Shown piece after piece: positions 55,173 through 59,847 of a DNA stretch of 64,000 nt (the stretch's first letter is position 1; every line of letters begins with the position of its first letter). The notes beneath the pieces were generated by a model. The model was given only the letters and a program-made list of their open reading frames with translations, did not search any database and was not told the origin of the DNA. Where the stretch lies: contig NZ_CP099966.1 in the NCBI RefSeq assembly GCF_025403485.1, forward strand, positions 2,108,001 to 2,172,000. The letters run 5' to 3'. Position numbers and translations under genes: made by a program. This stretch comes from Chryseobacterium paludis (lineage in GTDB: Bacteria; Bacteroidota; Bacteroidia; Flavobacteriales; Weeksellaceae).

Positions 55173-56189
55173 TTATTTATTCAGCTTTTTGTCGTTAATG
55201 TAATTATTGAGATGAAAATCAATACTATCTTTTACGGGAATGAATTGATAATTCAACTTTTCTTTAATTCTTTGACTGGAAATGGTGTTGAATGAAGTGA
55301 TAGATTCAATATTAGATTTTGTAACCATCTTTAATTTAGGAATCAACCAACCAAAGAGTATATTGGCTGTTCTTCCGGCATTAAGCTCTGCTTGGGATAA
55401 AATCCGGGCGTCTTTTAATCCTAGTTTTTTACGGATATAATTACCTACTTCTGCATATCTTTTATTTTCAGAGACCAAGATAAAACGTTCACCAAAAATG
55501 TTATTCTCCATAAGTTCTATAGAGATCCTGGCAACGTCCCGAACATCAACGTATGATGAACCACCAGAAAATGTAAAATTATTTTTCTCAAAAGTTGAAA
55601 AAAGCTCACCACTGCTTTGAGTCCAGTTTCCACTGCCTATGATAATAGCCGGATTGATGATGATCGTATTTAAACCTTCCGCTGAAGCTCTCCATACTTC
55701 CATTTCTGATAAATGCTTAGAAATGGCGTATGCAGGATGATCAATTTTTGGATTAAAATCAGAATCTTCGTCAAGCTCTCCTTTTTCATTGAAGCCGTCT
55801 AAAACAGCCACAGAGCTTACATGTAGAAATTTTGTTACCTGAGAACCTTCACAGGCAAATAAAAGACGTTCAGTACCTTTGATATTTGTATGGTACATCT
55901 CCTTTCCATCTTGTGGATGAAAACTTACTTTTGCGGCGCAGTGATACACTTCATCTACTCCTTTCAAAGCATTTTCCAGTGAATTGATATCGTCAAAATC
56001 AACATCTATCCATTCGATCTTGTTAAAAAAATCATCTGGATTTTCAGTATAAAACTGATACGAATGTCTTACTTCGTTTAAATTACTTGTGGGTCTTTTG
56101 GCGCCTCGTACATTTTTACCTCTCTTAAGAAGTTCTAAAATAATTACGCGGCCCAAAATTCCGGTTGCTCCCGTTACAAAAACCATCAA
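55173..56189 (-). CDS. NAD-dependent epimerase/dehydratase (extended SDR)
   Basis: The Rossmann start MVFVTGATGILGRVIILELLKRG (GxxGxxG), VYHCAAKVSFHP, HVSSVAVL and the YAISK catalytic Tyr/Lys mark an extended SDR of the dihydroflavonol-reductase-like group. Length 338 aa. The substrate is unknown. A role near lipid or acyl metabolism is possible from its immediate coupling to the acyl-CoA synthetase gene. Confidence 0.9.
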   Translation of the reverse strand: MMVFVTGATGILGRVIILELLKRGKNVRGAKRPTSNLNEVRHSYQFYTENPDDFFNKIEWIDVDFDDINSLENALKGVDEVYHCAAKVSFHPQDGKEMYHTNIKGTERLLFACEGSQVTKFLHVSSVAVLDGFNEKGELDEDSDFNPKIDHPAYAISKHLSEMEVWRASAEGLNTIIINPAIIIGSGNWTQSSGELFSTFEKNNFTFSGGSSYVDVRDVARISIELMENNIFGERFILVSENKRYAEVGNYIRKKLGLKDARILSQAELNAGRTANILFGWLIPKLKMVTKSNIESITSFNTISSQRIKEKLNYQFIPVKDSIDFHLNNYINDKKLNK

Positions 56190-56396
56190 TTATATTCCTA
56201 CTTGATTGTTGACTAAATTATGATAATATTTTTGATTCAGCAATTCTCAGCTGCATCCTAAAAATGTGAAAAAATACTTTTGCAAATTTGCGATTTTTAA
56301 AGCACAATTCAGCTTAATTTCATCAATATTATCAGTTTAAATATATTCTTAGAATAGTTATTGTAACGGAAAACCGGCTTTATAAAAATTTACTTT

Positions 56397-57404
56397 TTAA
56401 GCTAAAACCATATTATTTCTTCTCGGTGCCTTGTCACACAAAACATCAGCAATACTTTTAGAAATAAGATTCTCTTCCGTTAGATTATCCAACCAGAAAA
56501 ACTCACCAGCACCATTAATTTCAATGAAATAATATTCATCATCAGGAGATACAATAATATCCAATGCACCGTAATCAACATTATAAACATCCAGAAGTTC
56601 GAGAACTTTAGTTTCAATATCTTTAGGAAGATCTGTTCTCACCCATTTATCGATAAGATTCACACCATCTTTTCTCCAGTCTACTTTTGCATCTTCAAAT
56701 TGTTGCGAATCGATCTCAAAAGCGTATACATCTCTGCCTACAACAGTCACTCTTAATTCTCTTTTCTTTTCGATTTTCGTCTGAAACTGCATCGGACAAT
56801 AGAGTAAAGTATCCAATTCTTCCAGTTTCTCTTCTCCAATAACATTCGTAAAGACCACGTTCTCTACACCATCTTCATAGATTGCAAAACCAGCCTGCAT
56901 CTTCCCTATCACATTCTTGTGTTTAAGGATAAAGCTTCTTGCCTCATCAGGGTTATTGGTAATACAGGTTTCAGGAATTTTCAATCCGATTTTATCAGCA
57001 ATTTTCAACTGTTCTTCCTTACTGTCTAATCTTCTGTAGACACTTGGTTTTCCCAAAGCGTACGCATCAATAGATTCTAAAAATCCAAAAAGTGTTGTGC
57101 GAATTTCACCCATTGCTGCACCATAAAATTTAGCATCAATTTCTTCTTTCAGGCCCTCCCCCATATTATAGGCTCTTCTATACCATACAGCAGCAATATC
57201 ATCTAAACGATGTTTAGCAGTAGGAGTTTCGAGAATGCTGATCCATTTTCCATCCTGGAAAGTGGTTGATAATTTATTTTGTAGAGGATATAAATCTACA
57301 TCAAAACGAATAACCTCAAAGCCATTTTTTTCAATATATTCTGTTACTTTTAGAATTGAAAAATTATCTCCAGTATGGGTTATTATTAAAATTTTATTGT
57401 TCAT
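56397..57404 (-). CDS. Graspetide (microviridin-type) ATP-grasp ligase, MvdC/MvdD family, second ligase
   Basis: This 335-aa ligase carries the family's N-terminal ITHTGDNFSILKVTEYIEKNGFEVIRFDVDLYP, AVWYRRAYNM and GKMQAGFAIYEDG. LLYCPMQFQTKIEKKRELRVTVVG, EIDSQQFEDAKVDWRKDG and the Mg/ATP end YGALDIIVSPDDEYYFIEINGAGEFFW follow. These closely follow the cyanobacterial MdnB/MdnC ligases, which join core Thr/Ser/Lys side chains to Asp/Glu carboxylates. It overlaps the preceding ligase gene by 11 bases. Whether it forms the esters or the amide cannot be decided by eye. Confidence 0.92.
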   Translation of the reverse strand: MNNKILIITHTGDNFSILKVTEYIEKNGFEVIRFDVDLYPLQNKLSTTFQDGKWISILETPTAKHRLDDIAAVWYRRAYNMGEGLKEEIDAKFYGAAMGEIRTTLFGFLESIDAYALGKPSVYRRLDSKEEQLKIADKIGLKIPETCITNNPDEARSFILKHKNVIGKMQAGFAIYEDGVENVVFTNVIGEEKLEELDTLLYCPMQFQTKIEKKRELRVTVVGRDVYAFEIDSQQFEDAKVDWRKDGVNLIDKWVRTDLPKDIETKVLELLDVYNVDYGALDIIVSPDDEYYFIEINGAGEFFWLDNLTEENLISKSIADVLCDKAPRRNNMVLA

Positions 57405-58353
57405 TGGTTTTCATTCTTTTTATAAGGTTATCGGCAATGCTTTCCGCAATAGGAAAATCTAATTCTTTTTGTAACATTCCCCACTCTCCTTGTGGGTTTA
57501 CTTCAAGGAAATAATAATTTCCATCTCTCCCTTTTATCATATCAATGGCGCCCATATAAAGTCCCATTTCTTTCATCATTCCGGAAAGATGAGCTTTAAT
57601 ATCTTCAGGCAATTCATAAGGTGACCAAAAATAATTTCCTTGATTGACACGCCAGTCAGCATGTTCACTATTATTGATCTTTCCTGTAAAAAAATCACCA
57701 TCCACATACATGATTCTTAATTCATATTCTTTTTCAATATAAGGCTGAAAAATCATAGGGCAGTAAGCGATATCAGAAATTGATTCTAAATTATCTTCAT
57801 CAATTATTGTCGTAGAAAGTAAATCTTCTCCGCCCATCGATTTTGAAATGACCCCATGAAGTTTTGCGACTGCTTTTCCATTACAATGCTCATGGAAAAA
57901 AGCAGTTATTTTTTCTTTATCATTCGAAAACAATGTTTTTGGAACCGTTAAATTATTCTTTTTTGCTATTTTCAGTTGATACAATTTATTTCCATCCACT
58001 TTTTTTTCTTCTTCAAAGGGATTGATCCATGGGACATGCTCTAAAGCTGTGTAAAGATTATATCGCAAACTTCCATATTCATTTACAAAAATTTTCACAT
58101 AATCATTATCCAACTCTTCCGGAATACTGATGCGCCAGCCTTTTCTGTGCCAAACCGCTTTAATATCATTGGAACTGACTGTATTTCCATACTCATCTGT
58201 CAATTCAAATGAATTTTCGTTAATACTGACTTCCTGAAGATGGTTCACATGATCTGAATTCAATCTGAAATATGGAATATTTTTAGAGGAAAGATATTCG
58301 AAGAAAATATCAATGTTATAAAAATCATTGGAGTGAGTGATACAAAGAATCAT
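57394..58353 (-). CDS. Graspetide (microviridin-type) ATP-grasp ligase, first ligase
   Basis: This 319-aa protein has the same fold and motif order as its partner: ITHSNDFYNIDIFFEYLSSKNIPYFRLNSD, AVWHRKGW, KLHGVISKSM, AYCPMIFQPYIEKEYELRIMYVDG, ADWRVNQGNYF and MGAIDMIKGRDGNYYFLEVNPQGEWG. It differs at hallmark positions (WHRK for WYRR, NPQGEWG for N.(A/V)GEFFW), so the two ligases are diverged and probably form different bonds. The gene follows a hairpin with T-run that separates it from the precursor genes. Confidence 0.9.
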   Translation of the reverse strand: MILCITHSNDFYNIDIFFEYLSSKNIPYFRLNSDHVNHLQEVSINENSFELTDEYGNTVSSNDIKAVWHRKGWRISIPEELDNDYVKIFVNEYGSLRYNLYTALEHVPWINPFEEEKKVDGNKLYQLKIAKKNNLTVPKTLFSNDKEKITAFFHEHCNGKAVAKLHGVISKSMGGEDLLSTTIIDEDNLESISDIAYCPMIFQPYIEKEYELRIMYVDGDFFTGKINNSEHADWRVNQGNYFWSPYELPEDIKAHLSGMMKEMGLYMGAIDMIKGRDGNYYFLEVNPQGEWGMLQKELDFPIAESIADNLIKRMKTNEQ

Positions 58354-58371
58354 TTATTGCTTTTTATTAAA

Positions 58372-58400
58372 AAAGGAAACTTAGAGTGTAAGTTTCCTTT
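58372..58400 (-). terminator. Hairpin with T-run between precursor and ligase genes (attenuator-like)
   Basis: AAAGGAAACTTA (58372-58383) pairs perfectly with TAAGTTTCCTTT (58389-58400) around GAGTG. On the minus strand it is followed by a T-run. Placed after the two precursor genes and 19 bases before the ligase start, it should stop most transcripts while letting some read through, giving more precursor than enzyme. Confidence 0.8.
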
Positions 58401-58444
58401 AATTATGATTTGTAAATATTGTTATCTATTATATAAACAATTCA

Positions 58445-58642
58445 TTATACTGTTGGAGCATCATCATCCCCATCAGATGGATATTTCATTGTATGAGCCA
58501 TATCTAAAGTTGGCTTTGTAACAACATCTCTTTCTGGAATTGTAATGTCTGGTCCACCGCCTGTTACAGATTGAGGATCTTTTAATTGTTTCTCAAGAAA
58601 TGATGCGAAAAATGGTTTTTTCTTTGAACTCTTGTTTTTCAT
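58445..58642 (-). CDS. Microviridin-like graspetide precursor peptide 2, 65 aa
   Basis: The leader has PFFASFLEKQ (residues 10-19), the ligase-binding helix equivalent to PFFARFL of microviridins, and VTGGG (26-30). The core near the C-terminus is HTMKYPSDGDDDAPTV. Its T51-x-K53-x-P-S56-D57-x-D59-D60 pattern matches the tricyclic microviridin core, but the lactam position has Asp (60 or 61) instead of the usual Glu. Predicted bonds by family rule: Thr51-Asp57 and Ser56-Asp59 esters, Lys53-Asp60 amide. A four-residue tail follows. Confidence 0.9.
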   Translation of the reverse strand: MKNKSSKKKPFFASFLEKQLKDPQSVTGGGPDITIPERDVVTKPTLDMAHTMKYPSDGDDDAPTV

Positions 58643-58685
58643 AATGTTTTAATTTGGTTTGACTTAATATTTTGTTGAAATTTGA

Positions 58686-58955
58686 TTAAAAATGATCGAT
58701 CGGTAAAGATGGATCTATAGGATGAAGAGGTCCGCCTTCATCATTATCAGAAGGATACTTCAATGTAACATTATCATTTCTTACTGTTGTTACATTATCT
58801 GCTAAAACAGAAGTAATGTCATCTTTTGAAGGAATAGTAATTACATCTCCGTTAATGGAAGTAATAACCCCGCCTCCGGTTACTTTCTCAGGCTCTTGAA
58901 TTTGTTTCTCTAGAAAAGAAGCAAAAAATGGTTTTTTTAGTTTTTTTGGTTTCAT
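58686..58955 (-). CDS. Microviridin-like graspetide precursor peptide 1, 89 aa
   Basis: The leader has PFFASFLEKQ (residues 9-18) and VTGGG (25-29), shared with precursor 2. A longer spacer (30-62) leads to the core TLKYPSDNDE (64-73). By the family rule the bonds would be Thr64-Asp70 and Ser69-Asp72 esters and Lys66-Glu73 amide. A 16-residue tail (GGPLHPIDPSLPIDHF) extends beyond the core, longer than in classical microviridins. It is the first gene of the cluster, 43 bases before precursor 2. The upstream region has TACTTTAG with a TTG 15 bases before it as a weak promoter candidate. Confidence 0.92.
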   Translation of the reverse strand: MKPKKLKKPFFASFLEKQIQEPEKVTGGGVITSINGDVITIPSKDDITSVLADNVTTVRNDNVTLKYPSDNDEGGPLHPIDPSLPIDHF

Positions 58956-59067
58956 AAGTAAATATTTTTAACTTTTTTGATAAATCTAAAGTACAAAATT
59001 TTCACATTCAAAAAAATAAATCACTCTTTTAAGAAAATTTTAACAACATAAAAGACAGAGTATCAAA

Positions 59068-59847
59068 TTAATCCAACCCTAAAAATTTTTTAACAACCAT
59101 ACTAAAATCCACAGGATTATCGGCCTGAACCCAATGAGCTGCATTTTTAACCGTCACAATTTTCGCCTTTGGAAACTGTTGTTTAATTGCATATTCATCT
59201 TGTGGAAGAATGTAATTGGATTTTTCTCCGGCAATAAACAATGTCTCTCCTTCAAAAACTCCAAATTTTATCGCATTGGAAACAAACTCATTATATTTTT
59301 CAGATAGTGTTTTAAGATTAAATCTCCAATTCAATTTTTTATTATCATCCCAATACAGATTCTTAGCCAGAAACTGAATGGTCGATTTTTCTGGGATATA
59401 CTGAGTTAATACAGCTTCTACTTCATTTCTTGATCCCACTGTATTGAAATCAACAGTTTCCAAAGCTTTAATAATTCCCTGATGATGTGGAGGGTATGCT
59501 TTTGGAGAAATATCAACAACAATTAACTTTTCAACTTTTTCCGGATATTTTATGGCAAACTGCATTACCGCTTTACCACCTAAAGAATGTCCTAAAACGT
59601 GGGCTTTTTTTATTCCATAATGATCCATATAATTGGCAATATCATCTGCCAGGTCATCATGTGACATACTTTCTGAGTGGAAACTTCGTCCATGATTTCT
59701 TAGATCCAAAAGATGAACCGGAAGATATTCTCCCAGATCCTTTCCAAAACTTCCCCAATTGTCGAGCATTCCAAACAAACCATGGAATACTAATAAAGGT
59801 GTAGACGATTTTTCTTCGCCAAATATTTTTGAATGTAAAATTTCCAT
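59068..59847 (-). CDS. Alpha/beta-hydrolase, YbfF-like esterase
   Basis: Landmarks are LLVFHGLFGMLDNWGSFGKDL (oxyanion region), HLLDLRNHGRS, VLGHSLGGKAVMQFA (nucleophile Ser) and the C-terminal NAAHWVQADNP (catalytic His). At 259 aa with no signal peptide, it is a cytosolic esterase of the YbfF group, which acts on short acyl esters including malonyl- and acyl-CoA in E. coli. It is upstream of the graspetide cluster on the same strand, with a 112-base gap. I see no functional link. Confidence 0.88.
   Translation of the reverse strand: MEILHSKIFGEEKSSTPLLVFHGLFGMLDNWGSFGKDLGEYLPVHLLDLRNHGRSFHSESMSHDDLADDIANYMDHYGIKKAHVLGHSLGGKAVMQFAIKYPEKVEKLIVVDISPKAYPPHHQGIIKALETVDFNTVGSRNEVEAVLTQYIPEKSTIQFLAKNLYWDDNKKLNWRFNLKTLSEKYNEFVSNAIKFGVFEGETLFIAGEKSNYILPQDEYAIKQQFPKAKIVTVKNAAHWVQADNPVDFSMVVKKFLGLD

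Follow-up and report, generated by a model that had tools for sequence, protein, structure and literature searches.

A chryseoviridin-type graspetide locus in Chryseobacterium paludis and a conserved hairpin between its precursor and ligase genes

What would become of the two small peptides encoded at positions 56397-58955 of a Chryseobacterium paludis sequence, and is the system that makes them new? We analysed a window of 64,000 nt (NZ_CP099966.1, positions 2,108,001 to 2,172,000 of the forward strand), and all coordinates below are those of this window. The locus consists of four genes read in one direction on the minus strand, the precursors A and B followed by two ATP-grasp ligases of 319 aa (CdnB) and 335 aa (CdnC). 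With high confidence we assign it to the chryseoviridin-type (class III microviridin-like) graspetide systems, with the mechanism proposed below. The genes, their families and motifs, the register of modules, their conservation and the hairpin are read directly from the sequence. A preliminary description of this DNA had listed the same four genes, the PFFASFLEKQ leader and the TxKYPSD core, and proposed a microviridin-like graspetide with MdnB/MdnC-type ligases and chryseoviridin kinship. The open reading frames, translations and family matches, including one to a crystallised CdnC, agree with it on all of these points. Its two other proposals, a novel arrangement of two precursors per ligase pair and single cores losing three waters each, did not stand, the latter being probably wrong.

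In both A and B the PFFASFLEKQ leader, which is of the PFFA type of graspetide group 1 (microviridin/chryseoviridin), is followed by GGG. The cages TLKYPSDNDE of A and TMKYPSDGDD of B fit the common pattern TxKxPSDx(D/E)(D/E). The tails differ, that of A being proline-rich. Both precursors pass the models NF033738 (microvirid_RiPP, cut-off 26 bits) and PF12559 (cut-off 21 bits). A and B are the only matches of NF033738 in the 5.05 Mb genome, and a search of 14 control genomes with this model found no precursor.

Both ligases pass the cut-off of PF21068, the MvdD pre-ATP-grasp domain. The best NCBIfam type is MvdD for the 335-aa ligase and MvdC for the 319-aa ligase, and an MvdD-family search of the genome returned these two proteins only. 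Among solved proteins, the crystallised CdnC itself (PDB 7mgv, aligned over residues 3-334) is nearest to the 335-aa ligase, which makes the latter a CdnC orthologue, and AMdnB (PDB 7m4s) is nearest to the 319-aa ligase. The ATP-grasp catalytic residues, whose loss had been named beforehand as fatal to the assignment, are present in both: the D and ExN motifs, presumably the metal-binding residues, are D271, E284 and N286 in the 319-aa ligase and D282, E295 and N297 in the 335-aa ligase. By analogy with their relatives, the CdnB-type ligase is predicted to form a Lys-Glu/Asp lactam, and the CdnC-type ligase Thr/Ser-Asp/Glu esters. The start of the 335-aa ligase overlaps the 319-aa ligase gene by 11 nt. 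In one draft genome (G103) CdnB and CdnC are fused in one 651-aa frame (L089:3544-5499), which could be natural or a sequencing indel.

To collect related loci, we searched the GTDB collection using the 319-aa ligase as query. The best 80 of 95 relatives, close relatives only, were retained: 78 from Chryseobacterium and two from metagenome-assembled genomes of Weeksellaceae (L058, L084). They contain 199 precursors recognised by the leader or core motif, with one precursor in 11 loci, two in 35, three in 20, four in 12 and five in 2; when TxKxPSD only is counted, the numbers are 13, 42, 19, 4 and 2. Two precursors are thus the commonest arrangement by either count, which, together with the multi-precursor loci in the accessible text of PMC8939145, rules out the proposed novelty. 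In L005 (Chryseobacterium sp. ISL-6) both precursors are identical to A and B. CdnC is present in 78 of the 80 loci, and the two exceptions (L082, L084) end at a contig end. The alpha/beta hydrolase and pdxJ are found in all 80 loci, the epimerase and an acyl-CoA ligase-like gene (labelled by eye) in 72; the eight loci that miss the latter pair include four truncated ones (L019, L050, L082, L084) and four that are not truncated (L040, L041, L051, L058). At the level of genomes, the precursor family is present in 140 and CdnB (E <= 1e-40) in 139 of 169 Chryseobacterium genomes, and of 296 genomes from the family, 131 carry CdnB at the same threshold, all within one of 28 genera. The cluster is an ordinary, complete member of a genus-wide graspetide system that has already been described.

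According to the accessible text of PMC8939145, the chryseoviridin locus of Chryseobacterium gregarium contains four precursors, CdnB and CdnC, has been traced through 47 related species, is flanked by an alpha/beta hydrolase and an epimerase, and has undergone duplication and exchange of precursors. The C. paludis cluster shares with it the CdnC-like ligase, the PFFA-type leader, the GG motif, extra linkable modules before the microviridin-like cage, and both flanking genes, which are not thought to be part of the pathway. By number of precursors it differs, with two instead of four. Two ATP-grasp ligases, the PFFA leader helix and the TxKYPSD cage with two acids after it are common to this cluster and the cyanobacterial microviridin clusters (MdnA/B/C, MvdC/D/E). 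Unlike the latter, it has a GG leader, T-x4-D modules that precede the cage, and no acetyltransferase among its four genes; this enzyme is optional in microviridin clusters (PMC13039773, accessible text). The same text describes class III precursors, mostly from Bacteroidetes, e.g. chitinoviridins, as having a GG motif and a longer core of which only the C-terminus is microviridin-like, as is the case here. These are often accompanied by a C39 transporter, which the four-gene cluster lacks.

A FastTree phylogeny of the 187 distinct precursors was divided at the split that best separates proximal precursors (those next to CdnB) from distal ones, a split chosen after the fact and with a local support of 0.906. 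The 72 distinct proximal precursors all fall on one side, joined there by two distal ones, L032_p2 and L044_p3. B belongs to the proximal lineage, and A to the distal one. This fits the two precursor clades considered likely ancestral in the accessible text of PMC8939145.

How many cross-links would each precursor carry? In A, four six-residue modules T-x4-D (T32-D37, T40-D45, T48-D53, T56-D61) precede the cage T64-E73, so that five threonines follow each other with an exact period of 8; the fraction of shuffles reaching four modules is 0.0003. In B two modules (T34-D39, T42-D47) precede the cage T51-D60. Such modules are frequent in the 187 distinct precursors (201 if duplicates and the window are included). 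T-x4-D occurs in them 603 times, compared to a shuffle mean of 116 (standard deviation 9.2, maximum 145, 500 shuffles). Among Thr-to-Asp offsets from 2 to 11, offset 5 accounts for these 603 cases, and the runner-up for 119. The spacing between modules is 8 residues in 430 cases, 9 in 155, and other in 18. Several Thr-Asp modules, as in the chryseoviridin locus, are thus present as a register in the sequence. Zhao et al. 2021 are said to have described a chryseoviridin (CdnA3) product with several five- or six-residue rings and the microviridin-like core last, and the T-x4-D register of A, B and the 187 precursors agrees with it. Up to seven dehydrations are predicted for A and up to five for B, versus three for each in the preliminary description. 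Of these predicted links, six in A and four in B would be esters made by CdnC, and one in each the amide added by CdnB. For cleavage after GG, the calculated monoisotopic masses are 6510.272 for unmodified A and 6384.198 after loss of seven waters, and 3896.845 for unmodified B and 3806.792 after loss of five; cleavage after GGG would lower each by about 57.02. In the accessible text of PMC8939145 the extra chryseoviridin linkages are deemed possible and named lactam once and lactone elsewhere; that of PMC12291112 counts chryseoviridin among the graspetides with repeating macrocycles.

The presumed partners of the lactam can be followed through the same set. In 180 of the 187 distinct cores position 3 is Lys, and all 180 have an acid at position 10. 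The remaining seven have Arg at position 3, and none of them has the acid. Paired loss of Lys and of the position-10 acid is expected if these two residues form the lactam. The Arg cores, TxRYPSDSD(A/S), belong to the third or fourth precursor from CdnB in L034, L036, L040, L051, L065, L082 and L084; with Lys and its acidic partner lost jointly, a cage without the lactam is predicted for them.

The 91-nt gap between B and CdnB contains a hairpin, GGAAACTTA-N5-TAAGTTTCC inside a 12-bp stem (58372-58400), with a six-T run on the operon strand whose first three T are able to pair at the stem foot. The folding energy of the gap is -16.6 kcal/mol (z -4.57). A purpose-made detector found a stem of at least 8 with a T-run in 79 of 80 loci versus 6 of 1600 shuffled gaps, a generous contrast, as the detector counts T-runs reaching into the 3' arm and the shuffles are plain. 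The T-runs were recounted on aligned gaps. Of the 119 gaps between precursors, one of about 10 bases or fewer was left out; in none of the other 118 did the detector find a stem with a T-run. The alignment contains 79 distinct gaps from the 80 loci (L012 repeats L010, and the window gap replaces that of L005). The core stem is present in all 79, followed on the operon strand by a run of 5-7 T in 75. The T-run on the opposite strand is 3 or less in 67 gaps and 4 or 5 in 12; none is longer. Pairing is retained in 99.3% of 944 alignment cells, and the seven unpaired ones are all at the foot of the stem. Both sides have changed in 31 cells, and 29 of these show A-U replaced by G-C at a single pair. 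Where one side alone has changed and pairing is kept (34 cases), the change is always A to G, producing G.U on the operon strand. Of five covariation measures, three were reached by none of 500 shuffles; the other two, which count pairs altered on both sides and additional pair types, were reached by 234 of the shuffles and are not above chance. Nearly invariant, the nine inner base pairs of the stem form a palindrome. A search of the genome for the pattern gave this single site, and Rfam gave no match up to E 1 across 56300-59100. The evidence thus supports well an RNA element encoded on the operon strand, while its action as a terminator is inferred; it probably shapes the transcript, by partial termination or as a protected 3' end, and may keep the precursors in excess over the ligases. 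Matches to sigma-70-type promoters show no excess (16 vs 14.2 in shuffles) in a scan not fitted to promoters of Flavobacteriia.

Lanthipeptide operons are known to place partial terminators between the genes of precursors and enzymes; the hairpin would therefore be new as a detail, its kind being known. It was not found in the literature searched, a search that mostly left subscription papers outside, and the word 'terminator' was not found in the accessible text of PMC8939145. Two candidate precedents were discarded, as 'terminator' is a species name in the accessible text of PMC13097080 and refers to the T7 terminator in that of PMC9576775.

The proposed mechanism, built by analogy with characterised relatives from ring chemistry to leader cleavage, export, protease inhibition and the effect of the hairpin, is as follows. 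The PFFASFLEKQ helix of A and B would dock on the ligases. CdnC would esterify Thr/Ser to Asp/Glu within each six-residue T-x4-D module as well as in the TxKYPSD cage, and CdnB would add the Lys-to-Glu/Asp amide, completing the cage. A C39 peptidase-transporter whose gene lies outside the cluster would probably then remove the leader at the GG motif, and the products would be exported as serine-protease inhibitors. The hairpin after the last precursor gene would keep precursor mRNA above ligase mRNA.

A leader peptidase encoded in the cluster is ruled out, none being present among the four genes; such loci do not as a rule encode a C39 peptidase (PMC8939145, accessible text), and GG motifs are a feature of class II and III precursors, often together with C39 transporters (PMC13039773, accessible text). 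In 169 genomes, uncorrected for kinship, a C39 peptidase is present in all 140 carriers of the precursor family and in 25 of 29 non-carriers, so that the four genomes without a C39 domain are all non-carriers. This co-occurrence is weakly compatible with processing in trans and does not name the enzyme. One system, at L087:4115-9778, combines a 731-aa C39 peptidase-transporter, a Cys-rich peptide with a GA leader, and HlyD-like and VKOR/thioredoxin-like genes (labels by eye); apparently it is a core peptide-export system of the genus. A second C39 peptidase-transporter, at L088:6534-10306, stands next to a 443-aa cupin/JmjC-like protein (by eye) and a small peptide that combines an LRGG leader with a tail rich in Val and Arg.

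Table 1. Features of the locus in window coordinates
Feature	Coordinates	Strand	Basis
Precursor A, distal, 89 aa	58686..58955	-	ORF; NF033738 67.4 bits; PF12559 23.5 bits
Precursor B, proximal, 65 aa	58445..58642	-	ORF; NF033738 69.4 bits; PF12559 32.3 bits
CdnB / MvdC(MdnB)-type ATP-grasp ligase, 319 aa	57394..58353	-	TIGR04185 416.4 bits; 7m4s 213.9 bits
CdnC / MvdD(MdnC)-type ATP-grasp ligase, 335 aa	56397..57404	-	TIGR04184 471.9 bits; 7mgv 626 bits
RNA hairpin, 12-bp stem, 5-nt loop, six-T run	58366..58401	-	between B and CdnB
Predicted macrocyclised part of A, four T-x4-D modules and cage	58737..58862	-	translation; linkages predicted after microviridin/chryseoviridin
Predicted macrocyclised part of B, two T-x4-D modules and cage	58463..58543	-	translation
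Upstream flank, alpha/beta hydrolase	59068..59847	-	Pfam; present in 80/80 loci
Downstream flank, NAD-dependent epimerase/dehydratase	55173..56189	-	Pfam; present in 72/80 loci

Several observations weigh against this assignment or parts of the mechanism. Both ligases narrowly miss the equivalog cut-offs (475 bits for TIGR04184, 425 for TIGR04185) and are for this reason not filed as equivalogs; the check by family models is thus positive for the precursors and for PF21068 and falls short at this level. The ring chemistry of A and B is drawn wholly from homology. The two modules of B, taken alone, are marginal (the fraction of shuffles reaching two is 0.026), and the seven Arg cores, being kin, may reflect one event, so that a Fisher test on them gives no fair probability. 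No peptidase or transporter is found among the four genes. The two C39 domains, encoded at genome positions 4114555 and 4662321, lie about 1.9 and 2.5 Mb from the cluster, and each peptidase-transporter adjoins a small GG/GA peptide of its own (by eye). The 731-aa C39 transporter is near-universal: 159 of the 169 genomes have a match at E <= 1e-280, and six carriers (G018, G036, G037, G060, G105, G110) are among the ten without such a match, other C39 domains being present in them. Finally, a generic terminator scan, with two sites in total vs 1.2 in shuffles, lists the hairpin site on the plus strand and does not accept it on the operon strand.

This last point, together with the three of six T that can pair at the stem foot on the operon strand and with the nearly invariant palindromic inner stem, favours a hairpin that is not a terminator but an element of RNA processing or stability, or else a DNA operator palindrome bound by a regulator. 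We regard this as possible, though doubtful. An operator is opposed by the one-sided changes, since all 34 give G.U on the operon strand and thus A.C on the other, and by the 31 cells changed on both sides. A terminator is favoured by the runs of 5-7 T on the operon strand, whereas the other strand reaches 4 or 5 T in 12 of the 79 gaps; the evidence of T-runs and pairing leaves a terminator and an RNA stability element unseparated. A dedicated, regulated attenuator, whose read-through would rise under some condition and so set how much ligase is made per precursor and how many T-x4-D rings are closed, seems very unlikely; if it existed, one precursor gene would give differently ringed products.

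Uncertainty about the peptides themselves concerns both their role and their rings. The same chemistry could yield an exported signal, or a metal-binding or antibacterial peptide, with no protease inhibition; the tails of A and B differ, and we know of no activity of either peptide. We consider this unlikely, as every graspetide characterised so far is a protease inhibitor according to the accessible text of PMC8939145. Moreover, Met or Leu occupies the presumed P1 position in most precursors: with duplicates and the window included, in 72 of the 81 proximal ones and in 67 of the 70 that stand second. These residues suit targets of the chymotrypsin, subtilisin or elastase type rather than trypsin. 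The products are probably protease blockers. It would be most surprising if the precursors were single-core after all, with the TxKYPSD cage alone cross-linked and the T-x4-D stretch a plain spacer. The cage is indeed the portion common to classical microviridins, and the modules of B are marginal when taken alone, but this reading conflicts with the five-fold excess of T-x4-D over shuffles and with the register of 8 or 9 residues kept up to the core Thr in the 187 distinct precursors.

We thus retain the chryseoviridin-type assignment with several predicted rings per peptide. Two precursors are the usual form of the Chryseobacterium system. The corrected number of linkages, up to seven and five instead of three, matters for the detection of these peptides by mass, and the conserved hairpin between precursors and ligases is directly testable.

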